Part shown: piece after piece, positions 21,828 through 37,087 of the stretch
Layout: the number at the start of each line of letters is the position of its first letter
How positions within the stretch are numbered: the first letter of the stretch is position 1
Assembly (NCBI GenBank): GCA_030427885.1
Contig: JAUICM010000006.1
Coordinates: forward strand, 62,001 to 126,000
Source of the DNA: Rhodothermia bacterium
Lineage (GTDB): Bacteria > Bacteroidota > Rhodothermia > Balneolales > Balneolaceae
Reading direction: 5' to 3'
DNA length: 64,000 nt
Position numbers and translations under genes: made by a program
The notes under the pieces: model-generated
The model's input: only the letters and a program-made list of their open reading frames with translations
Told to the model about the DNA's origin: nothing
Database searches by the model: none

Positions 21828-22952
21828 ATGCTATTCAAGACTATTTTTCTTTTAGGAGCAATTCACGGATTGGTTCTGGCAGTGTTACTTGCAGGTAAAA
21901 AAGTAAACCGGCTTTCAAATAAGATCATGGGCGTTTTGATGTTGGTCTTTTCAATAGATCTGGGAATGGCTGCATTCCTTGGATTTGGTCAAACAGTAGA
22001 ATATCCGTTTTTGCTGGGGCTCGACTTTCCGATCACACTGCTTTATGCGCCACTTATCTATTTATATTCGAAGACACTGATGCACGGGCAGCATAGCCTG
22101 AAAAGATCAGATCTGATTCACTTGATTCCGTTTGCGTTACTGCTATTGTATACCATTCCATTCTATATGATGTCATCTCAGGAAAAGCTGTCATTATTAA
22201 ACGAAGGTGGTGGCCTGGATTATGGTCCGGGGTTTATAACGCATATCAAGGTGTATTTTAATATTGCGTACATCCCTTTCATCATAAAAGAGTATCTGGC
22301 ATATCGGCAGCGATTGAGGGCGAACTATTCATCCATTGAAGAAAGGAATTTAAGCTGGTTGGGCGGTTTCTTCATTGGGTTCCTTATCCTCGCGATTATT
22401 TCTGCAGGACTCCATCTGTTGAATTCGATGTCGGATCTGGACATTCCCTATATGAACTATACCTTACTGGCAGTAACGATCTTCGTATACAGTATTGGCT
22501 ATATGGGTCTCCGTCAACCAGAGTTTTTTGTGGATTACCCTGAAGACGAAGCAGATGAACCCGAGGTAAAAGAGCAGGACAGATATTCAAGGTCTGGACT
22601 TAGTAAAGAGGAAGGACAGAAGTTGATGGATCAGCTATCTGCATTGATGGCAAAGGAAAAACCGTATCAGAATAATGAATTAAGTCTCCGGGATCTGGCG
22701 GGAATGATGCATATCAGTACTCATTATCTGACGGAGATCATAAACCGTTATGCTGAGAAGAATTTCTACGAGTTTATTAATTATTACCGGGTAGAAGAAG
22801 TTAAGGAGAAAATACAGGACTCAGATTTTGAACATTTTACTTTGCTTTCTTTAGGGCTGGATGCAGGATTCAATTCCAAGTCTTCCTTTAATTCTGTGTT
22901 TAAGAAGCAGACGGGAATGACGCCTTCGGAGTATAAGAAATCACTCAATTGA
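21828..22952 (+). CDS. AraC-family regulator with N-terminal membrane domain
   Basis: 374 aa. The first about 230 residues hold seven or so hydrophobic segments; the last about 100 residues are an AraC-type double helix-turn-helix (SLRDLAGMMHISTHYLTEIIN, then LLSLGLDAGFNSKSSFN and the closing GMTPSEYKKSL). This membrane-sensor plus AraC layout is common in Bacteroidota and relatives. It is divergent from ggt and upstream of a TonB receptor gene, so either is a plausible target. The signal sensed is unknown. Confidence 0.85.
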   Translation: MLFKTIFLLGAIHGLVLAVLLAGKKVNRLSNKIMGVLMLVFSIDLGMAAFLGFGQTVEYPFLLGLDFPITLLYAPLIYLYSKTLMHGQHSLKRSDLIHLIPFALLLLYTIPFYMMSSQEKLSLLNEGGGLDYGPGFITHIKVYFNIAYIPFIIKEYLAYRQRLRANYSSIEERNLSWLGGFFIGFLILAIISAGLHLLNSMSDLDIPYMNYTLLAVTIFVYSIGYMGLRQPEFFVDYPEDEADEPEVKEQDRYSRSGLSKEEGQKLMDQLSALMAKEKPYQNNELSLRDLAGMMHISTHYLTEIINRYAEKNFYEFINYYRVEEVKEKIQDSDFEHFTLLSLGLDAGFNSKSSFNSVFKKQTGMTPSEYKKSLN

Positions 22953-27537: not shown

Positions 27538-28809
27538 ATGAAGAAAATGATGTCACTTTTGGTAGTTGGTTTGTTAGCAACATTAGTCTATGGACAAACA
27601 AGTGAGCCGATAACCTTACAATATTGTTATGATCAGATAGAAACAGGATACCCTGCAGCAAACAAGATCCGTATCCAGGAACAGATCAAAGAACTGAACC
27701 TAAAACTTCGTCAAACCGGATTATATCCGGAGATCACATTGAGTGGAAGCGCCTCCTATCAATCGGATGTAACGGAAGTTTCATTTGCAGGTCCTGCTGC
27801 GCCTCAGTTCAGTAAAGATCATTATTCCATTGCGCTGAATATCAATCAGCCTTTGTTTGATGCAGGCCGAACGAGAGGACTTAAAGCAGTGGAAGTAGTG
27901 AATAGTAAAACGGCTATCGCAGGAACAGAGGTGGAACTCTGGAATATCAGGAGCCAGATCGATCAGGTCTATTTCAGTATTCTGCTGCTCAGTAAACAAA
28001 AAGAGAATATAGATCTGCTGTTGAAGGATCTTAACGAGCAACTCAGCCTGGTTAAAGCAAGAGTCGAGAATGGGGTGCTCCTTCGAAGTAATGAATTAGT
28101 GCTTAGGGCAGAAATTCTGAAAGTACGACAACAAAGGTCGGAAACGGAGTCAAATATTAAAGCCGGAATCGACGTATTGAGTACTTTGATCGGGCAGGAA
28201 ATTGATGGAGATACTGAACTTGAGCTCCCGGAGTATCAGGAAAATAAAGTTCAGGACCAGGAAGCTCGTCCGGAATTTGAGCTGTTTAGAAGTAAAGAAG
28301 AAGTTCTGGATGCTCAGATCGGATTACTTGGTTCCGATAAATTGCCGGTGATCTCAGCTTTTGCTAAAACGGCATATGGTCGTCCCGGATTTAATGCTTT
28401 TGATGATGATCTGCAATTCAACTGGATCATAGGATTGAGAGCTCAGTGGAGTTTCAGGAATTGGAAAAATTCATCCACAAAAGAGGAGGTGATCCGCTTA
28501 CAAAAACAACAGAATACTGCTGATAAGGATGCCTTTTCAAGACAGCTGGAAGCAAGTCTGGCACGGACGGAAGAGCAAATAGCGTCGCTTCAGGAACAGA
28601 TCAGCCTGGACCAACAGGTACTTGAGCTAAGAGAACAAGTGGTGAATGAAAAGCAAAGTCAGCTTGATCAGGGAGTGATCACTTCCACAGAATTTATAAC
28701 AGAATTGAATGCCGAGAACCGGGCCAGGCTCAATCTTGAGATCCATAAAGTTCAGCTGATTCAGGCAAACTACGATTATCTAACAAAACGAGGTGTTTCA
28801 TGGAAATGA
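27538..28809 (+). CDS. TolC-like outer-membrane efflux protein
   Basis: 423 aa with a signal peptide (MKKMMSLLVVGLLATLVYGQ). Two long helical repeats of the outer-membrane efflux protein family are visible, including SIALNINQPLFDAGRTRG and the equivalent GLRAQWSFRNWKNSS in the second half. It should form the trimeric exit duct for the ABC exporter encoded downstream. It lies 2 bases after the TetR gene and overlaps the adaptor gene. Confidence 0.87.
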   Translation: MKKMMSLLVVGLLATLVYGQTSEPITLQYCYDQIETGYPAANKIRIQEQIKELNLKLRQTGLYPEITLSGSASYQSDVTEVSFAGPAAPQFSKDHYSIALNINQPLFDAGRTRGLKAVEVVNSKTAIAGTEVELWNIRSQIDQVYFSILLLSKQKENIDLLLKDLNEQLSLVKARVENGVLLRSNELVLRAEILKVRQQRSETESNIKAGIDVLSTLIGQEIDGDTELELPEYQENKVQDQEARPEFELFRSKEEVLDAQIGLLGSDKLPVISAFAKTAYGRPGFNAFDDDLQFNWIIGLRAQWSFRNWKNSSTKEEVIRLQKQQNTADKDAFSRQLEASLARTEEQIASLQEQISLDQQVLELREQVVNEKQSQLDQGVITSTEFITELNAENRARLNLEIHKVQLIQANYDYLTKRGVSWK

Positions 28810-29687
28810 GAAGAATAATATTGGCCGGATTGAGCTGTGTGCTTTTGGCAGCATGCAGCGAAGAAAATTTATCCGATGCATTTGGACAGTTTGAAACAGA
28901 CAAAACCACAGTTTCTGCAGAAGCATCAGGAAAGTTGCTTGAGTTTAATGTGGAAGAAGGGGTTGCCCTGCAAGCTGGAGTCAGGGTAGGGGTTATTGAT
29001 ACCACTTCACTGGTTTTGAGGAAAAAAGAACTTAATGCATCAATAAAGTCCATCAGAAGTAATATTTCATCTCTGAATGCACAAGCTGATGTATATAAGA
29101 CTCAGCTTAGAACAGCGGAACGGGATTTCGAACGTTTGACTGCTCTTCGCAAGGATAATGCAACCACCCAGAAACAGGTTGATGATGCCGAAGGAGCAAT
29201 AGCCACATTGAAAAAGCAGATCACTGCTGTGGAAGTTCAGAAGCAATCGGTATATGCAGAGATCGAAACGATGAACACCCGTATTGACCAGGTTGAAGAC
29301 CAGATCAAAAAAGCGATAATAGTAAATCCGGTCAAGGGAATAGTGCTTTCAAAATATGCAGAAGCACATGAATTAGCGGCACCTGGAAAACCATTGTATC
29401 AGATCGCTGATACTGATGAACTTGTATTAAGAGTGTTTGTTTCAGGAGCACAACTTCCACAGGTGAAGCTGGGAGCGGAAGTGAAAGTTTTTATTGATAA
29501 GAACGCTGAAGAAAACCAATCCCTGAAAGGAACAATCAGCTGGGTTTCATCAGAAGCTGAGTTCACTCCAAAGATGATTCAAACCAAAGAGGAGCGGGTT
29601 ACCCAGATGTATGCGGTTAAGATCCGGGTTCAAAATCCGGATGGAGTGATCAAGATCGGAATGCCGGGGGAGGTAGTTTTTAATTGA
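28800..29687 (+). CDS. HlyD-family periplasmic adaptor (YbhG-like) lipoprotein
   Basis: 295 aa. A lipobox LLAACS gives a lipid-anchored periplasmic adaptor. The order is biotinyl-lipoyl half (ASGKLLEFNVEEG), a long coiled-coil hairpin (about residues 75-165), the second lipoyl half (VNPVKGIVLSKYAEAHELAAPG) and a beta-barrel domain. It joins the TolC-like duct to the ABC transporter. The start at 28800 overlaps the upstream gene by 10 bases. An alternative ATG at 28806 gives the tighter ATGA overlap and may be the true start. Confidence 0.87.
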   Translation: MEMRRIILAGLSCVLLAACSEENLSDAFGQFETDKTTVSAEASGKLLEFNVEEGVALQAGVRVGVIDTTSLVLRKKELNASIKSIRSNISSLNAQADVYKTQLRTAERDFERLTALRKDNATTQKQVDDAEGAIATLKKQITAVEVQKQSVYAEIETMNTRIDQVEDQIKKAIIVNPVKGIVLSKYAEAHELAAPGKPLYQIADTDELVLRVFVSGAQLPQVKLGAEVKVFIDKNAEENQSLKGTISWVSSEAEFTPKMIQTKEERVTQMYAVKIRVQNPDGVIKIGMPGEVVFN

Positions 29688-29702
29688 CGATGGACTACTA
29701 AT

Positions 29703-30629
29703 ATGGCCAGTGCAGTTCACATATCGCAAGTCTCAAAATCCTTTGGAGCCGTAAAAGCCCTCAGAAATATATCTTTTGAAGTAAATGAGGGTGAGTTATT
29801 TGGATTCGTGGGTCCGGACGGAGCTGGAAAAACAACCTTATTCAGAATACTCACTACTTTGTTAATCCCGGATTCCGGAGAGGCAAAAGTACTCGGGATG
29901 GATGTAATCGAAGATTACAAGAAGATCAGACCTCAGCTTGGTTATATGCCGGGACGTTTTTCGTTGTATCAGGACTTGAGTGTGGAAGAGAATATGAAAT
30001 TTTTTGCATCTGTTTTTGGGACCACCATTGAACAGAATTACGAATTGGTGAAGCCAATCTATCATATGCTGGAGCCGTTTAAGAACAGGTTGGCCGGTCA
30101 GCTTTCGGGAGGAATGAAACAGAAACTGGCCTTAAGCTGTGCTCTGATCCATAAACCCAAGTTGCTGTTACTTGACGAACCTACAACAGGAGTTGATGCA
30201 GTTTCAAGAAAGGAATTCTGGGAAATGCTTAGAATGCTGAAAGAAGAAGGTATAACCATTGTGGTTTCTACCCCTTATATGGATGAAGCCAAACTATGCG
30301 ACCGGGTTGCACTCATTGATAAATCTGAGATCCTTCAGATTGATTCACCGGGTAATCTTACCAAAGCCTTTACAAAAGCTCTTTATGGCATTAAGCATCC
30401 TGATAAATACCGGTTGATAAATGTACTCAAAGACTATGAATTTGCGGATTCTGTTCACCCTTTTGGAGAGTTTATTCATTACACCGATAGGAGGGGAAGC
30501 ATAGATGAGTCTGGATTAAATGAGTATTTGGATTCCAAAGGATTAACCGAAGCAAACATCCAAAGTATTGAACCGGATATTGAAGATTTGTTCATGTCGC
30601 TGATGCAGCCGGAGGAACTCCATGTCTGA
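29703..30629 (+). CDS. ABC transporter ATPase 1 (YbhF N-half-like)
   Basis: 308 aa. Walker A GPDGAGKTTL, signature LSGGMKQKL, Walker B LLLLDEPTTG and a switch region STPYMDEAKLCD are all present. The Asp in Walker A (GPDG) is typical of the first ATPase of YbhF-type exporters. A C-terminal extension of about 80 residues follows. In Escherichia coli two ATPase halves are fused in YbhF; here they are separate genes that overlap by 8 bases. It should power drug or lipophilic-compound export. Confidence 0.88.
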   Translation: MASAVHISQVSKSFGAVKALRNISFEVNEGELFGFVGPDGAGKTTLFRILTTLLIPDSGEAKVLGMDVIEDYKKIRPQLGYMPGRFSLYQDLSVEENMKFFASVFGTTIEQNYELVKPIYHMLEPFKNRLAGQLSGGMKQKLALSCALIHKPKLLLLDEPTTGVDAVSRKEFWEMLRMLKEEGITIVVSTPYMDEAKLCDRVALIDKSEILQIDSPGNLTKAFTKALYGIKHPDKYRLINVLKDYEFADSVHPFGEFIHYTDRRGSIDESGLNEYLDSKGLTEANIQSIEPDIEDLFMSLMQPEELHV

Positions 30630-31365
30630 ACTCGCTATTTCGGCAAAAGGATTGACACGTATCTTCGGAGATTTCACGGCGGTGGATCATATAGATCTGG
30701 ATGTAAAAAAAGGGGAGATATTTGGATTTCTGGGAGCAAACGGAGCAGGTAAGACCACGGCGATGAAGATGCTGACGGGATTACTGTCGCCTTCCTCAGG
30801 AGAAGCAAAAGTATCCGGATTTGATGTGTATACCGAGGCCGAGAAGATAAAAAAACGTATCGGATACATGAGTCAGAAATTCTCCTTGTATGATGACTTG
30901 ACCCCGGAAGAGAATATTCGTTTTTATGGGGGAGTGTATGGTCTGAACGACAGAGAATTGAAGGATAAGAAAGATGAACTTATTTCTTCGGTAGGTCTTG
31001 AACAGTTTCGGAATAAGCAGGTTGGATCGCTACCGCTTGGATGGAAGCAGAAACTGGCATTTGCAATCTCGATCATCCATGATCCAAAGATCGTTTTTCT
31101 GGATGAGCCAACGGGGGGAGTTGATCCGGTAACGAGACGACAGTTCTGGGAACGGATCTATGAAGTGGCTGATTCCGGTATAACCGTTTTTGTGACCACA
31201 CATTATATGGATGAAGCCGAATATTGTGATCGCGTTTCCATTATGGTAGATGGCCGGATCGATGCAATAGATAGCCCATCCGGGCTGAAATCATCCTTCA
31301 ATGCGTCTTCCATTGAGGAAGTGTTCATAAGTTTGGCCCGGTCGGCTGAAAGGGGGGACGGATGA
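30622..31365 (+). CDS. ABC transporter ATPase 2 (YbhF C-half-like)
   Basis: 247 aa. Walker A GANGAGKTTA, Walker B VFLDEPTGG and the His-containing switch TTHYMDEAEYCD are canonical. The signature motif reads LPLGWKQKL instead of LSGGxKQ, a change I also associate with the second half of YbhF-type ATPases, so it is probably an asymmetric pair with ATPase 1 and not a dead gene. It overlaps the genes on both sides (8 and 4 bases). Confidence 0.87.
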   Translation: MSELAISAKGLTRIFGDFTAVDHIDLDVKKGEIFGFLGANGAGKTTAMKMLTGLLSPSSGEAKVSGFDVYTEAEKIKKRIGYMSQKFSLYDDLTPEENIRFYGGVYGLNDRELKDKKDELISSVGLEQFRNKQVGSLPLGWKQKLAFAISIIHDPKIVFLDEPTGGVDPVTRRQFWERIYEVADSGITVFVTTHYMDEAEYCDRVSIMVDGRIDAIDSPSGLKSSFNASSIEEVFISLARSAERGDG

Positions 31366-32471
31366 ACGCTTTTATGGGTTTTGTGGTCAAAGAATTCAAA
31401 CAGATCTACCGCGATACAAGGACACTGGTTGTTCTTTTCGGAATGCCGATCATCATGCTTACTCTTTTTGGGTTCGCGATCCGGAATGAAGTAAGTAATG
31501 CTAAGATCGGGGTTCTGGATCTTTCCAAAGACGAAGTAACCCGCGAACTCATTCAAAAATTGTCAGTTTCAAAAGCATTTGAGCTGAATGCTTACCTCGA
31601 TAATTATGACCAGATAGAAGAAGTATTCAAGCAGGGTGAGATCAAAGAGGTTGTAGTGTTTGAAAATAATTTTGCTAACAAGCTGGTAAAGGAAGGGAAG
31701 GCAGATGTTCAGGTGATCACTGATGCAACCGACCCGAATCTGGCAAATATAGTCCAGTCGTATACCGGAGCAATCATCAGAGATTATGTACAGGAGATCA
31801 ACGATAATGGGGTTGCGGTGAAGGCAGGTATTCAGCCTTCCGTTCAGATGATGTACAATCCCGAATTGAAAAGTGTGAATCTATTTGTACCGGGATTAAT
31901 AGCGGTAATTCTGATGCTCATTTCCGCACTTATGACTTCCATATCCATCACCCGTGAAAAGGAGATGGGGAATATGGAGATCCTGCTGGTTTCACCCCTA
32001 AAGCCACATTATATCATTATTGGGAAGGTAATTCCTTATTTGCTGCTTTCAGTGGTTAATGTGATCACGATTCTGGTTCTGGCGAAATTTATATTCAATG
32101 TACCGTTCAATGGATCGTATGGATTCTTCTTTTTTGAATCGATCTTATTCATCGTGACCGCCCTTGCACTCGGTGTGTTCATTTCCTCGGTTGCCCAAAA
32201 TCAGCAGACAGCCATGATGGCATCATTAGCTGGTTTATTATTACCTACGGTATTGCTTTCCGGGTTCATTTTCCCGGTTGAAAGTATGCCTCTTCCATTA
32301 CAAGTAGTTAGCAATATCATACCTGCCAAATGGTTCCTGATCATTGTAAGAAGCATTATGCTGAAAGGAAGCGGACTGCTCTTTCTATGGAAAGAAACCC
32401 TGATTCTGGCATTTATTGCTCTTGCATTCATTGCACTGAGTCTTAAGAAATTCAAAGTGAGGCTGCAATGA
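31362..32471 (+). CDS. ABC-2 type permease (YbhS/YbhR-like) 1
   Basis: 369 aa. One N-terminal membrane segment is followed by a periplasmic domain of about 140 residues, then five C-terminal membrane segments with the family signature SISITREKEMGNMEILLVSPL and the FPVESMP segment. It forms half of the membrane channel together with the next gene. It overlaps its neighbours by 4 bases on both sides (ATGA), a sign of translational coupling. Confidence 0.88.
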   Translation: MNAFMGFVVKEFKQIYRDTRTLVVLFGMPIIMLTLFGFAIRNEVSNAKIGVLDLSKDEVTRELIQKLSVSKAFELNAYLDNYDQIEEVFKQGEIKEVVVFENNFANKLVKEGKADVQVITDATDPNLANIVQSYTGAIIRDYVQEINDNGVAVKAGIQPSVQMMYNPELKSVNLFVPGLIAVILMLISALMTSISITREKEMGNMEILLVSPLKPHYIIIGKVIPYLLLSVVNVITILVLAKFIFNVPFNGSYGFFFFESILFIVTALALGVFISSVAQNQQTAMMASLAGLLLPTVLLSGFIFPVESMPLPLQVVSNIIPAKWFLIIVRSIMLKGSGLLFLWKETLILAFIALAFIALSLKKFKVRLQ

Positions 32472-33604
32472 GAACCATCAAATTCCTTCTTCAAAAAGAA
32501 TTCCTTCAGATCTTCCGAAACAAAGGTATGCTGCCTATTATTTTCGTGATGCCCATCATACAGTTGATGGTGCTTTCCTTTGCGGCAACCTACGAACTCA
32601 AAGAAGTGGATTTTGCGGTTGTCGATTTTGACCAATCAAGCACTTCAAGACAACTGATTGAACGCATGCAGGCCACGGGTTACTTTGAACTTTATGGAGA
32701 ATATACCAGTGCAGGTCAGGCCCTGGATGAACTCGATAAAGGAAATGTCAAGCTCGTGCTTCAAATCCCGGTTCATTTTCAGAGGAATCTGAACGCAGGG
32801 GAATCAGCGCCAATCAATTTATCAATTGATGCGGTGGATGGCAGTTCTGCAGGACTCATTCAATCGTACACTTCTTCCATCATTGCTGACTTCAACAGGG
32901 AGAAACTGGCCGATGTTCAGATCATGAATGCAGCGATAGGTAATTCAGCCGGAAATCAAAAGCTGATAACAATGAAACCTGTTAACTGGTACAATCCTGA
33001 TCTGGATTACATCACTTTTATGGTTCCGGGAATACTTGTGGTTCTGGTTTCAATGATCGGGTTGTTTTTGTCGGGGATGAATATTGTAAGGGAACGAGAG
33101 ATCGGAACAATTGAACAGCTTAATGTGACCCCCATCACAAAGTCACAATTCATGATTGGCAAGTTAATGCCATTCTGGGTGATAGGTATGGTTGATCTTT
33201 TGATAGGATTGAGCCTCGCCCGATTTGGGTTTCATATTCCGTTTCTGGGCAGTTTGTTCACTATCCTGGTGATTGCGGGGATCTACCTGATTCTGGTTCA
33301 ATCCCTGGGTTTATTCATTTCCACGATAACACATACCCAACAGCAAGCTATGTTCATTGCCTGGTTCATGATGGTAGTGTTCATACTGATGGGCGGGTTA
33401 TTTACTCCGGTTGAAAGTATGCCTGGCTGGGCACAGGATCTAACTCTGGGTAATCCTGTAGCATATTTCATCAGGATAATGAGGATGGTGCTGCTGAAAG
33501 GAGCTGGTTGGCAGGAAGTGTACAAAATGGTGTTTGTGCTGATCGGAATTGCGGCCGGTTTGCTGGGAATATCCATCAACAGATATAAAAAGACCGTTAG
33601 CTGA
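32468..33604 (+). CDS. ABC-2 type permease (YbhS/YbhR-like) 2
   Basis: 378 aa with the same layout as the preceding permease: N-terminal membrane helix, periplasmic domain, and a C-terminal membrane domain containing NIVREREIGTIEQLNVTP and FTPVESMPGWAQ. It is the last gene of the exporter operon. Its stop codon lies in a short perfect palindrome GCTGAATTTAATTCAGC (33600-33616) related to the family-2 end palindrome. Confidence 0.88.
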   Translation: MRTIKFLLQKEFLQIFRNKGMLPIIFVMPIIQLMVLSFAATYELKEVDFAVVDFDQSSTSRQLIERMQATGYFELYGEYTSAGQALDELDKGNVKLVLQIPVHFQRNLNAGESAPINLSIDAVDGSSAGLIQSYTSSIIADFNREKLADVQIMNAAIGNSAGNQKLITMKPVNWYNPDLDYITFMVPGILVVLVSMIGLFLSGMNIVREREIGTIEQLNVTPITKSQFMIGKLMPFWVIGMVDLLIGLSLARFGFHIPFLGSLFTILVIAGIYLILVQSLGLFISTITHTQQQAMFIAWFMMVVFILMGGLFTPVESMPGWAQDLTLGNPVAYFIRIMRMVLLKGAGWQEVYKMVFVLIGIAAGLLGISINRYKKTVS

Positions 33605-33675: not shown

Positions 33676-35997
33676 ATGCGACAACTGGCCGCAATCATGT
33701 TTACGGATATAGTAGGGTATACTGCCATCATGCAGGATGATGAGCAAAAGGCAGTGAATCTCCGATCCCGTCACCGTAAAGTATTCAAAGAACAGCACGA
33801 CAAGTTCAATGGAACCTTGGTTCAGTATTTTGGGGATGGAACACTTAGTATGTTCAAAAGCGCAGTTGAAGCAGTTTCCTGTGCAGTAGCATTACAAAAA
33901 GAGCTGAATGAAGGGGATATCAAAGTACCTGTTCGGATCGGGTTACATCTTGGTGATATTTTTTATGATGGAACAGAGGTCTTCGGGGATGGAGTAAATG
34001 TAGCGGCCCGAGTTGAAGGTATAAGTGAATCCGGGGCGGTTCTTATATCGGAGCACCTGAATCGGGAACTGAAGAATAAGAATGAGCTTCCAACAAAATC
34101 ACTTGGAGAATATAAGTTCAAGAATGTCACAGATCCGGTAGAGGTGTTTGCGGTTTGCTCAGAAGGGTTGAACATTCCTGATCCGGACCATATGCCGGAT
34201 AAGAAAAATGATTCCGGAAAATCAGTGGCCGTGCTTCCTTTTGAGAACATGAGTCCAGCCACAGAGCATGAGTACCTCAGCGATGGAATGACGGAAGAGA
34301 TCATCAATGCGCTCACGAAGATCAGAGAGTTAAAAGTTACCTCACGCACTTCTTCTTTCCATTTCAAAGGAAAAAATCTGAGTATCAAAGAGATCGGCAA
34401 ACAACTGGATGTTTCTACCATTGTAGTAGGAAGTGTGAGATTGGCGGGTGGAATGATGAGAATATCCACTCAACTCATAGATGTAAAAGAGGACTACAGC
34501 TTTTGGTCAGAGACCTACGACCGGACGCTGGATAATATCTTCGCCACACAGGATGAGATCAGTATGCAAATTGCGGATCGGCTCAGGGAACACCTGGGTC
34601 ATTTGCAGATCGATAATTCACTAGTGAAGAAACCAGATGTCTCAGTGGCAGGATATACCGAATATCTGAAAGGACGTTTCTACCTCTTGAAAATGAGTCC
34701 AAAGGATATTAAAACAGGAATGGATATTCTGGAAGAAGTTACCAGATCTAACCCAGATTATGTGTACGGATGGCTCGGAATGCATATGGGTTATGCCCTA
34801 CTGGGGACGCTGGGGATCATGCAGGCAGAAAAAGCTTTTGCAGAAGGACATAAATATCTGGAAAAGGCAGTTGAATTGGATAAAGATCTCCCAGAGTGCC
34901 AGCTTCAGCTGGCATGGATGAGTTTTTTGCAGGACTGGGATCTGAAGGCTACCTATGCTCATTTACAAAAGGTTCATGATCAGCGACCAATTGTTGATTA
35001 TTATCAAACTATGACCTCTGTGATTGTTGTCGAGAAAAAATTCAAAGCGGCAGAGAACTATATAGAAACTGCGTACAAGATGGACCCGCTTTCAGACATC
35101 ACTCATCACCTGAGAGGGTTTGTCCACTATGTCCAGGAGCAATTCGAGCAGGCTATCGCCAATTACAGAAGGAGTATTGAACTAAAGCCAGGTGCTGAGG
35201 TATCGTACATGGAATTGGGAGAGTCATTGATCCTGACCGGTAAAGCAGAAGAGGCACTGAAATTTTATAGTACTCTTCCCGAAGAAAGTGCATCCCTGAT
35301 GAGAAAGGGGGGAATGGCACTATCACATGCTGCACTTGGTAATAATAAAGAAGCCGAAGAAGGGATAGAATCGATAAAAGCAGCTCTCAATTCAGACCAG
35401 ATAGAGCGGGCACTCAATCTGCTGATATTGTGTGAAACTGTACTGGGAAATTACGAACAGGCTATTACCTACATTGAAGAGGGGATAAGCTATCGGCTTC
35501 CTTTGCTATTGTATTTGAAATTAGACCCCATGCTCAAACCATTGAGGGATATTGAACGGTATAAAGAGATCATGAAGGTCTTGCCAGATGCGATAGATGA
35601 GGAGACATCCCAACCTGAAAAGGCAAAAAAACTCCTCATATCGGATGATATCTTCGAACGTTATCATAAAGAGTTGACAAGCCTCATGGAAGTAAAGCAG
35701 CCTTATCTCGATCCCTTCCTGACCCTTCGTGATCTGGCAGAAATGATGGGAATCCCGGCTAATCAGCTTTCCCAGTTATTAAATGAAGGCTTCGATCAGA
35801 ATTTCTCAGAATTTGTCAATACCTATCGTCTGGAACAGTTCAAAAGCGAAATACGGAAACCAGAGAAACAACAATTTACACTGCTGGCCATAGCATTTGA
35901 ATGTGGATTCAATTCCAAGACTGTCTTCAACAGCTTTTTTAAGAAAACAATGGGGATTACCCCCAGTAAATATTTGAAATCCGTACGTACGGAATAA
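33676..35997 (+). CDS. Class III nucleotide cyclase - TolB-like - TPR - AraC fusion
   Basis: 773 aa soluble multidomain protein. Residues 1-160 are a class III nucleotide cyclase: metal-binding Asp11 (FTDIVGY) and Asp54 (YFGDGT), and the Asn108/Arg112 pair (GDGVNVAAR). The usual substrate-selecting Lys before the second Asp is Gln50. Residues about 180-310 are the SVAVLPFENMS domain found in many cyclase-TPR proteins, followed by TPR-like helical repeats to about 600. The last about 100 residues form an AraC DNA-binding domain (LTLRDLAEMMGIPANQLSQ, ending GITPSKYLKSV). AGGAG precedes the ATG. A DNA-binding end on a cyclase is unusual. It follows the exporter operon but has its own ribosome site. 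Confidence 0.85.
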   Translation: MRQLAAIMFTDIVGYTAIMQDDEQKAVNLRSRHRKVFKEQHDKFNGTLVQYFGDGTLSMFKSAVEAVSCAVALQKELNEGDIKVPVRIGLHLGDIFYDGTEVFGDGVNVAARVEGISESGAVLISEHLNRELKNKNELPTKSLGEYKFKNVTDPVEVFAVCSEGLNIPDPDHMPDKKNDSGKSVAVLPFENMSPATEHEYLSDGMTEEIINALTKIRELKVTSRTSSFHFKGKNLSIKEIGKQLDVSTIVVGSVRLAGGMMRISTQLIDVKEDYSFWSETYDRTLDNIFATQDEISMQIADRLREHLGHLQIDNSLVKKPDVSVAGYTEYLKGRFYLLKMSPKDIKTGMDILEEVTRSNPDYVYGWLGMHMGYALLGTLGIMQAEKAFAEGHKYLEKAVELDKDLPECQLQLAWMSFLQDWDLKATYAHLQKVHDQRPIVDYYQTMTSVIVVEKKFKAAENYIETAYKMDPLSDITHHLRGFVHYVQEQFEQAIANYRRSIELKPGAEVSYMELGESLILTGKAEEALKFYSTLPEESASLMRKGGMALSHAALGNNKEAEEGIESIKAALNSDQIERALNLLILCETVLGNYEQAITYIEEGISYRLPLLLYLKLDPMLKPLRDIERYKEIMKVLPDAIDEETSQPEKAKKLLISDDIFERYHKELTSLMEVKQPYLDPFLTLRDLAEMMGIPANQLSQLLNEGFDQNFSEFVNTYRLEQFKSEIRKPEKQQFTLLAIAFECGFNSKTVFNSFFKKTMGITPSKYLKSVRTE

Positions 35998-36064
35998 GTT
36001 CGGATTTATAAATCAGAACGTTTAGGGTATTGAGCTGTCATAAGTTTGTGTTGTGATTTTAAAC

Positions 36065-37087
36065 ATGAACACAAATCCAATTGTTATGACAACCTCAATG
36101 AATGCCATCATCGCTACGGGATACGGATCAGCTGATGTATACGAATATAGATCAGTAGTGAAGCCAATTCCTGAACCAAATGAGATCCTTGTAAAGATCC
36201 ATGCCACTTCTGTTACCAAAGCTCATACTATGATGAGAACAGGATATCCATTGATCGGAAGATTGGTAATGGGATTATTCAAGCCTAAAAATCCTATATC
36301 AGGAACTGATTTCGCAGGAGAGATCGTAGCCATAGGTAAAGATGTAAAGAAGTTCTCAGTAGGTGAGAAAGTATTCGGATCAACAGATGAAGACGGAGGG
36401 ACTTATGCGGAATATGTAAAGGTCAATCAGAATGGAGTCATACTAAGTATGCCTGACAATCTTAACTATGTTCAAGCCACAGCTGTTATAGACGGGGCTT
36501 CTACTGCACTTCCTTTTTTACAGGAGTTAGGAAAGATAAGTGAAGGCAGCAGCATCCTGATCAACGGTGCTTCAGGGAGTATTGGCACAGCCGCAGTTCA
36601 GCTTGCTAAATATTTTCGTGCGGAAGTGACTGGTGTTTGCAGTACATCAAATGTTGAAATGGTAAAGTGCAAAGGAGCGGATCATGTGATTGATTATACA
36701 AAAGAAGACTTCACGCAAAATGGTAAAAAGTATGATATCATTTTTGATACGGTAGGAAAGAGCAGCTTTAATGCCGTAAAAGATGTTCTGAGTGAAAACG
36801 GAGTTTATATGAGTCCCGTACTTGGGCTTAGATTGATGACGGATATGATAAAAACATCCCGTTCTGAAGGTAAAAGAGCTATTTTTTCTGCAACCGGCTT
36901 GCGCAAAGTAACAGATAAATTGATCGACTTCTATTTCTTGCGCGAGTTACTTGAAAATGGTGAGTTAAGTCCTGTGATCGACCGGATCTACCAGTTACCG
37001 CAACTAAGTGAAGCTCACAGGTACGTGGAAAAAGGCCACAAAAAAGGGAATGTGGTTATCGATATTACTGGTGAAGCGAATGATTGA
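36065..37087 (+). CDS. MDR-family NAD(P)-dependent oxidoreductase (quinone-reductase-like)
   Basis: About 340 aa from ATG 36065; a GTG at 36053 and ATGs at 36086 and 36098 are alternatives, and the family start would align near 36098. It is a medium-chain dehydrogenase of the quinone oxidoreductase type: GTDFAGEIVAIGKDVKKF, then the nucleotide-binding INGASGSIGTAAVQLAK and DVIDYTKEDF-like HVIDYTKEDF. Zinc-binding cysteines of alcohol dehydrogenases are absent, so a zinc-independent reductase is likely. The substrate is unknown. A weak hairpin follows the gene. Confidence 0.82.
   Translation: MNTNPIVMTTSMNAIIATGYGSADVYEYRSVVKPIPEPNEILVKIHATSVTKAHTMMRTGYPLIGRLVMGLFKPKNPISGTDFAGEIVAIGKDVKKFSVGEKVFGSTDEDGGTYAEYVKVNQNGVILSMPDNLNYVQATAVIDGASTALPFLQELGKISEGSSILINGASGSIGTAAVQLAKYFRAEVTGVCSTSNVEMVKCKGADHVIDYTKEDFTQNGKKYDIIFDTVGKSSFNAVKDVLSENGVYMSPVLGLRLMTDMIKTSRSEGKRAIFSATGLRKVTDKLIDFYFLRELLENGELSPVIDRIYQLPQLSEAHRYVEKGHKKGNVVIDITGEAND

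Follow-up and report, generated by a model that had tools for sequence, protein, structure and literature searches.

A probable local gene switch with a built-in class III cyclase in Bacteroidota, its predicted operator and its MDR gene partner

One gene in the 64-kb stretch of Balneolaceae DNA analysed here (the window) probably encodes a regulator that switches a neighbouring gene and contains a cyclase of its own. Its 773-residue product joins an N-terminal class III cyclase to a CadC-like fold, TPRs and an AraC DNA-binding domain. The protein is likely to act in the cytosol as a one-component activator that serves only the adjacent promoter, and its complete cyclase would provide a sensory or a second-output module. 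At the level of sequence the domain order, the intact catalytic residues, the pairing with a downstream gene of the MDR superfamily and the presence of a dyad at its usual fixed distance from a predicted -7 box are established. The features of the locus, numbered by window position, are as follows.

33676..35997, + strand: regulator gene, cyclase - CadC-like fold - TPR - AraC, 773 aa (ORF, Pfam, model, fold match)
33676..34170, + strand: class III cyclase domain, residues 1-165 (Pfam, fold match to Ma1120, residue alignment, conservation)
33706-33708, 33823-33825, 33835-33837 and 33976-33978, + strand: codons of cyclase residues D11, Q50, D54 and E101, respectively (residue alignment)
34216..34605, + strand: CadC-like alpha/beta domain, residues ~181-310 (fold match to 3ly9; NCBIfam HilA and CadC models)
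34642..35580, + strand: TPR/helical repeats, residues ~323-635, the least conserved region (Pfam; DSSP of the model; identity 0.39)
35641..35985, + strand: AraC DNA-binding domain, residues 656-770, with HTH_18 at 687-768 (Pfam)
35998..36019, no strand assigned: 22-bp dyad GTTCGGATTTATAAATCAGAAC, predicted operator, directly after the stop codon (consensus, template scores, genome scan)
36041..36048, + strand: TAAGTTTG, predicted -7 box (fixed spacing; consensus TAnnTTTG from the available text of PMC9723704)
36086..37087, + strand: MDR/quinone-oxidoreductase-like gene, predicted target (Pfam, synteny, control loci)

The open reading frame begins with ATG and has no internal stop. All the domains that the original prediction had placed on it were matched by Pfam: Guanylate_cyc at residues 5-150 (7.2e-11), TPR_2 (1.3e-12, with TPRs around residues 477-537), HTH_18 over profile positions 1-79 of 80 (8.4e-16) and HTH_AraC (3.1e-9). 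The last two give the C-terminal domain the two HTH motifs that characterize AraC/XylS proteins, in agreement with the double helix-turn-helix that had been predicted. An AlphaFold model calculated from 43 rows has a mean pLDDT of 86.9 and a pTM of 0.67. The matches listed in a fold search with the whole model are nearly all cyclase chains, and model residues 1-163 match the Ma1120 cyclase (4wp9) with a Z score of 25.5. Residues 172-502 match the periplasmic domain of E. coli CadC (3ly9; Z 20.3, 299 aligned residues, rmsd 4.3). The middle of the protein, residues ~172-635, consists of this CadC-like sensor fold and of repeats, not of TPRs alone; the TPRs had been recognized previously, but the CadC-like domain between them and the cyclase had been overlooked. 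CadC itself begins with a winged helix and crosses the membrane once. No winged helix of this type is found by Pfam in the regulator, and the highest 19-residue Kyte-Doolittle mean of only 1.25 suggests no membrane segment, making the predicted cytosolic location reasonable.

The domains differ in their conservation. The mean pairwise identity of 37 fusions among the matches listed is 0.73 in the CadC-like domain, 0.65 in the cyclase, 0.56 in the AraC domain and 0.39 in the TPRs. Judged by its conservation, the cyclase domain is under selection, and the variable TPR part is compatible with a sensor role.

The catalytic site of the cyclase domain is apparently complete. D11 and D54 align with the metal Asp residues of solved cyclases, as predicted, and together with the transition-state residues Asn108 and Arg112 they identify the domain as class III. 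Lys149 is also intact. The Lys/Asp pair that selects the purine in canonical adenylyl cyclases is absent, with Q50 aligned to the Lys of Ma1120 and 3mr7, and E101 to its Asp partner. The first of these two replacements had been noted in the original prediction, whereas the second had escaped it. Gln occupies the place of the substrate-selecting Lys in mycobacterial Rv0386, an enzyme whose substrate selection was reportedly found unusual by Castro in 2005.

Among the matches listed, D11, Q50, D54, N108 and R112 are each present in 40 of 40 distinct fusion proteins (that of the window included), although D11 and Q50-D54 are biased toward conservation because the scan patterns used for most loci cover them; this bias touches neither N108, R112, K149 and position 101 nor the loci obtained by searching the Balneolaceae family and the phylum sample. 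Position 101 in the same 40 listed proteins is Glu in 35 and Asp in five. The 73 AraC-less cyclase-TPR relatives among the matches listed all have D11, D54, N108 and R112 (73/73 each); their position 50 is Gln in 63, His in five, Lys in four and Asn in one, and their position 101 is mostly Gly (41). For these counts four duplicates were dropped, and 12 partial or other proteins and four cyclase-less proteins were left out. An alignment of 37 fusions and six relatives (among the matches listed), from which L019, L048, L077 and the incomplete L093 and L094 were left out, shows Lys149 in every row. By these partly pattern-biased counts, Gln is the usual state of position 50 in this clade. The purine-selecting residues of Ma1120 are K101 and D157, and its K101E mutant, according to the available text of PMC4215837, retained part of the adenylyl cyclase activity. 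From Q50 alone, therefore, one can infer neither a loss of activity nor the identity of the product.

It is unlikely that the cyclase domain has no catalytic role and only senses NTPs to gate DNA binding. The fusion to a DNA-binding domain and the departure of both purine-selecting positions from the canonical enzymes would suit such a role. A pure sensor could, however, let its catalytic residues decay, but Asn108, Arg112, Lys149 and both metal Asp residues are invariant, and Gln50 is usual in the listed relatives that have no HTH as well. The earlier picture of a complete-looking catalytic site and an AraC domain on one protein is thus retained, and its 'nucleotide sensor only' version is weakened by the three invariant residues Asn108, Arg112 and Lys149.

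Full-length fusions were found in four of 92 genomes of the family Balneolaceae, including the genome of the window, and in five of 394 genomes sampled across the phylum, including the same four. The three other family members encode the fusion as a single ORF at 67, 67 and 58% identity, and a genome from another Bacteroidota family does so at 49%. Given this recurrence, the fusion is neither an assembly artefact nor the result of a frameshift between two separate genes, a possibility that had been raised with the original prediction. The full length is conserved in at least 40 distinct Bacteroidota proteins. A scan of named genomes gave at least 80 loci, of which at least 37 have the fusion on one ORF running from the cyclase start into the AraC end (the L059 and L060 proteins are identical to those of L020 and L021). 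The hosts among the matches listed are Balneolaceae, Lewinellaceae/Saprospiraceae, Flavobacteriaceae (Arenibacter, Kriegella, Maribacter and Flavicella), Roseivirga and others.

Two groups of relatives share parts of the regulator. The cyclase-CadC-like-TPR proteins have its first two thirds at ~31-41% identity and, among the matches listed, no AraC domain; NCBIfam TIGR04510, by its partial match, represents one of their subfamilies. The CadC-like-TPR-AraC proteins share the middle and the AraC domain and have no cyclase. The genome of the window encodes a paralogue of each kind, L002 (34% identity) and L003 (35% identity over residues 178-768), respectively. It also carries a tandem array of paralogues, in which six consecutive ORFs of 620-770 aa (contig C8:303194-315902, L004-L009) match the CadC-like/TPR part. 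A second AraC-type gene is found in the window at 21828-22952 (L011, 374 aa), its AraC domain being 38% identical to that of the regulator. Elsewhere, open frames of 871-873 aa at G040:C1:2882637-2884079 and G039:C4:273589-274998 have a cyclase that is 50% identical and a CadC-like part that is only 28% identical.

The dyad that follows the stop codon of the regulator gene is short; dyads of this size are unusual for AraC proteins. At most fusion loci among the matches listed, the region after the stop codon contains the consensus GTTCsGATTTnnAAAyCcGAACG, usually 20 nt ahead of a TAnnTTTG-like -7 box. A template derived from Balneolaceae only was applied to 38 other fusion loci; 34 of them score at least 16 of 23, and 35 score at least 15. 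The same template reaches 16 in none of 71 AraC-less controls and 15 in seven (all among the matches listed; the controls are the 73 AraC-less relatives minus two with less than 200 nt). Of the 39 listed sites scoring at least 15, Balneolaceae included, 32 have TTTG exactly 24 nt past the 23-mer, and a template derived from all loci scores at least 15 of 21 in 36 of 41 listed loci. Fewer than 5 of 100 mononucleotide shuffles of the same stretch match the dyad score; the exceptions are L076, L082, L091 and L094, where the dyad is weak or absent. There is no box near the usual spacing in L086, L090, L091 and L102, and TTGG is found there in L019 and L059. The more distant fusions L090-L092, L095 and L102 have a dyad variant with an AATT core, suggesting that the site and the protein change together. 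Overall, the comparative evidence for a predicted cognate DNA site beside the regulator is strong.

The dyad pattern, being palindromic, matches the window once on both strands, compared to 0.02 matches expected from shuffles, and the window dyad is the only mismatch-free match in its genome. No second perfect dyad was found there; one place has two mismatches and the rest have three. Of the near matches in this genome, 15 loci were inspected (L165-L179), and all of them lack TTTG at the usual distance. After the stop codon of the cyclase-less paralogue L003, at C13:27097 (L144), there is a looser dyad, GTTCGGATTTACATTTCGGGAC, which has three mismatches and is followed at the usual spacing by CATCTTTG. 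The arrangement of dyad and -7 box may thus be common to the whole CadC-like-TPR-AraC family. Dyads occur near seven of 21 cyclase-less TPR-AraC regulators, in one case 1.2 kb away, and are more variable than those of the fusions. The idea that the symmetry of the cyclase is the necessary cause of the palindromic site was rejected, as dyads adjoin these cyclase-less regulators (7/21) more often than cyclase-TPR genes (2/71 among the matches listed). A search for the pattern in viral contigs found none.

With TAnnTTTG taken as -12 to -5, following the available text of PMC9723704, transcription is predicted to start near 36053. The dyad would then cover about -55 to -34 and be centred at -44.5, a position that suits an activator. 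The listed ORF of the downstream gene begins at a GTG at 36053 and ends at 37087, and because of the predicted transcription start the ATG at 36086 is the likelier start codon.

Quite improbable is the alternative that the dyad belongs to the regulator gene as a terminator or another RNA element, or is the site of another regulator, with the fusion acting elsewhere. The dyad does often abut the stop codon, the usual place of a terminator (2-9 nt past it in 19 of 39 sites among the matches listed). However, it has no T tract and was not called terminator-like, and its RNA fold z score is -0.27, leaving a terminator or RNA hairpin unsupported. Moreover, the dyad is in a fixed phase with the -7 box, it is absent after the listed AraC-less relatives, and in L065, L069, L078, L080 and L093 it lies 163-587 nt past the stop codon with the TTTG box still following it.

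The gene downstream of the dyad is a widely recurring partner of the fusion. Its product belongs to the MDR superfamily by Pfam, and among solved chains RTN4IP1 and quinone oxidoreductases come closest; the enzyme may reduce quinones or reactive carbonyls. When the neighbours were clustered at 38 loci (the window and 37 fusions among the matches listed), the MDR gene was the only one present at more than six. By tblastn, 31 of 39 listed fusion loci (37 full, and the partial L093 and L094) have it downstream on the same strand. Since the loci are related by descent, the counts given here, those of the dyad included, are not independent. In 27 of these 31 listed loci it is within 900 bp, and in L068, L075, L076 and L079 it is 1.7-5.4 kb away. 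Among the eight remaining loci, the available sequence ends within 1.5 kb in three (L062, L067 and L077). The other five (L065, L091, L093, L094 and L095) have enough sequence; the next gene encodes an NAD(P)H-binding protein in L091 and L095, and DUF4476 in L065. The dyad and the box are present in L065, L067 and L093 in spite of the missing MDR gene. No MDR gene was found by tblastn downstream of the AraC-less cyclase-TPR genes (0/41 loci among the matches listed, 36 of which have at least 1.5 kb rightward). For the cyclase-less TPR-AraC regulators it is downstream on the same strand, at most 1.3 kb away, in eight of 21 (20 regions): L145, L146, L150, L151, L152, L156, L159 and L160. Both types of regulator can adjoin, as in L149:5065-6846 (G032), where a cyclase-less TPR-AraC gene is convergent to a fusion-MDR pair.

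Directly upstream of the regulator, window positions 28800-33604 encode a membrane-fusion protein together with ABC ATPases and ABC-2 permeases, two of each (RbbA/DrrB-like matches). An operon with this exporter was considered and rejected, because the exporter is not kept beside the fusion at other loci.

A tree of the middle region provides some clues to the history of the fusion. It contains 78 of 131 rows after thinning at 65% identity (41 cyclase-TPR proteins, 22 fusions and 15 TPR-AraC proteins) and was made by a quick method without bootstrap. The AraC-bearing proteins together with L083 are split from the other AraC-less proteins with support 100. The fusion label requires six changes on the tree, three of which are forced by starred branches. 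L145, L159 and L160 have no cyclase, yet they are nested among the fusions and keep the MDR neighbour, so that the regulator-target pair is independent of the cyclase. The cyclase is a module that can be removed, since close relatives lacking it retain a target gene of this type. L158 is also cyclase-less and nested in the clade of the window, and has neither MDR neighbour nor dyad. L083 (6001-7950) is close to the fusions (52%), ends before the AraC domain and has no AraC match; it is a natural loss of AraC, with no MDR neighbour and a dyad score of only 13. No split cyclase gene was found beside the cyclase-less regulators in 20 regions, save the complete fusion in L149. As far as these comparisons of sequences and neighbours go, the dyad and the target track the AraC half of the protein and not the cyclase half.

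The same distribution bears on the alternative that the cyclase is the main output, the AraC domain merely tethering the protein to DNA or setting its own expression, and the cyclic nucleotide acting on CRP-type receptors. The completeness of the catalytic residues in all listed fusions, pattern-biased as it is, the many cyclase-TPR relatives that have no HTH, and the five cNMP-binding proteins encoded in the genome of the window speak for it. However, the dyad and the MDR gene go with the AraC half, the target is kept by cyclase-less relatives, and upstream of the regulator genes the dyad score exceeds 14 in only one of 39 loci among the matches listed (L080). This alternative is considered improbable.

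We infer all the dynamic steps of the mechanism favoured here, that of an activator dedicated to the adjacent promoter; the anatomy, the synteny and the DNA conservation on which it builds are observed. The poorly conserved TPR/CadC-like middle would sense a signal, either a ligand or a partner. The AraC domains would bind the 22-bp dyad, whose centre lies near -44.5, and recruit RNA polymerase to the promoter of the MDR reductase gene that follows. The class III cyclase would have one of two roles, producing a cyclic nucleotide as an additional output or gating DNA binding through its NTP-bound dimer. A narrower and rather doubtful version has the cyclase acting in cis, with the NTP-bound or turnover-driven dimer setting the DNA affinity of the AraC domain. 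The nucleotide pool and the TPR-sensed signal would then jointly control transcription of the adjacent NAD(P)H-type reductase with no need for a diffusible messenger, and the module would have been repeatedly lost or gained while regulator, site and target stayed together.

Some known systems resemble parts of this locus. In Pycsar, a PycC cyclase gene is paired with an effector gene. The window locus does not belong to this system, as the PycC match is only 22 bits and the flanking genes encode an ABC-2 permease and the MDR enzyme; a search for defence systems gave only weak matches. The closest precedent is the Mclx or CHD-LuxR group (Mycobacterium Rv0386, Rv1358 and Rv2488c), in which a cyclase, often with AAA/NB-ARC, is joined to LuxR; the available text of PMC4452763 and PMC3466318 describes the group as nearly exclusive to mycobacteria. 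Both share an N-terminal class III cyclase and a C-terminal HTH on one chain, so that a cyclase-HTH fusion as such is already known. However, Mclx has a LuxR HTH and an AAA/NB-ARC middle, whereas the window protein has an AraC HTH, a CadC-like/TPR middle and no LuxR family among its Pfam matches. In addition, the descriptions of Mclx in the same available text give no dedicated neighbour gene, operator or DNA target. The available text of PMC4886424 counts 746 cyclase domain architectures from Pfam, and in the open-access literature searched no paper describing a cyclase-AraC fusion was found. Three features are new: the combination of AraC with a CadC-like domain, its phylum-wide conservation next to a partner gene, and a predicted operator.

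In this family an operator, a promoter and a single target gene are predicted and kept over several Bacteroidota orders, and naturally occurring variants without the cyclase (L145, L159 and L160) or without AraC (L083) are available for comparison. Point mutants of a single protein, together with one DNA fragment, would suffice to test whether DNA binding is controlled by cyclization, by nucleotide binding or by neither. The answer bears on why some cyclases carry DNA-binding domains, a question that arises in the mycobacterial cases too.
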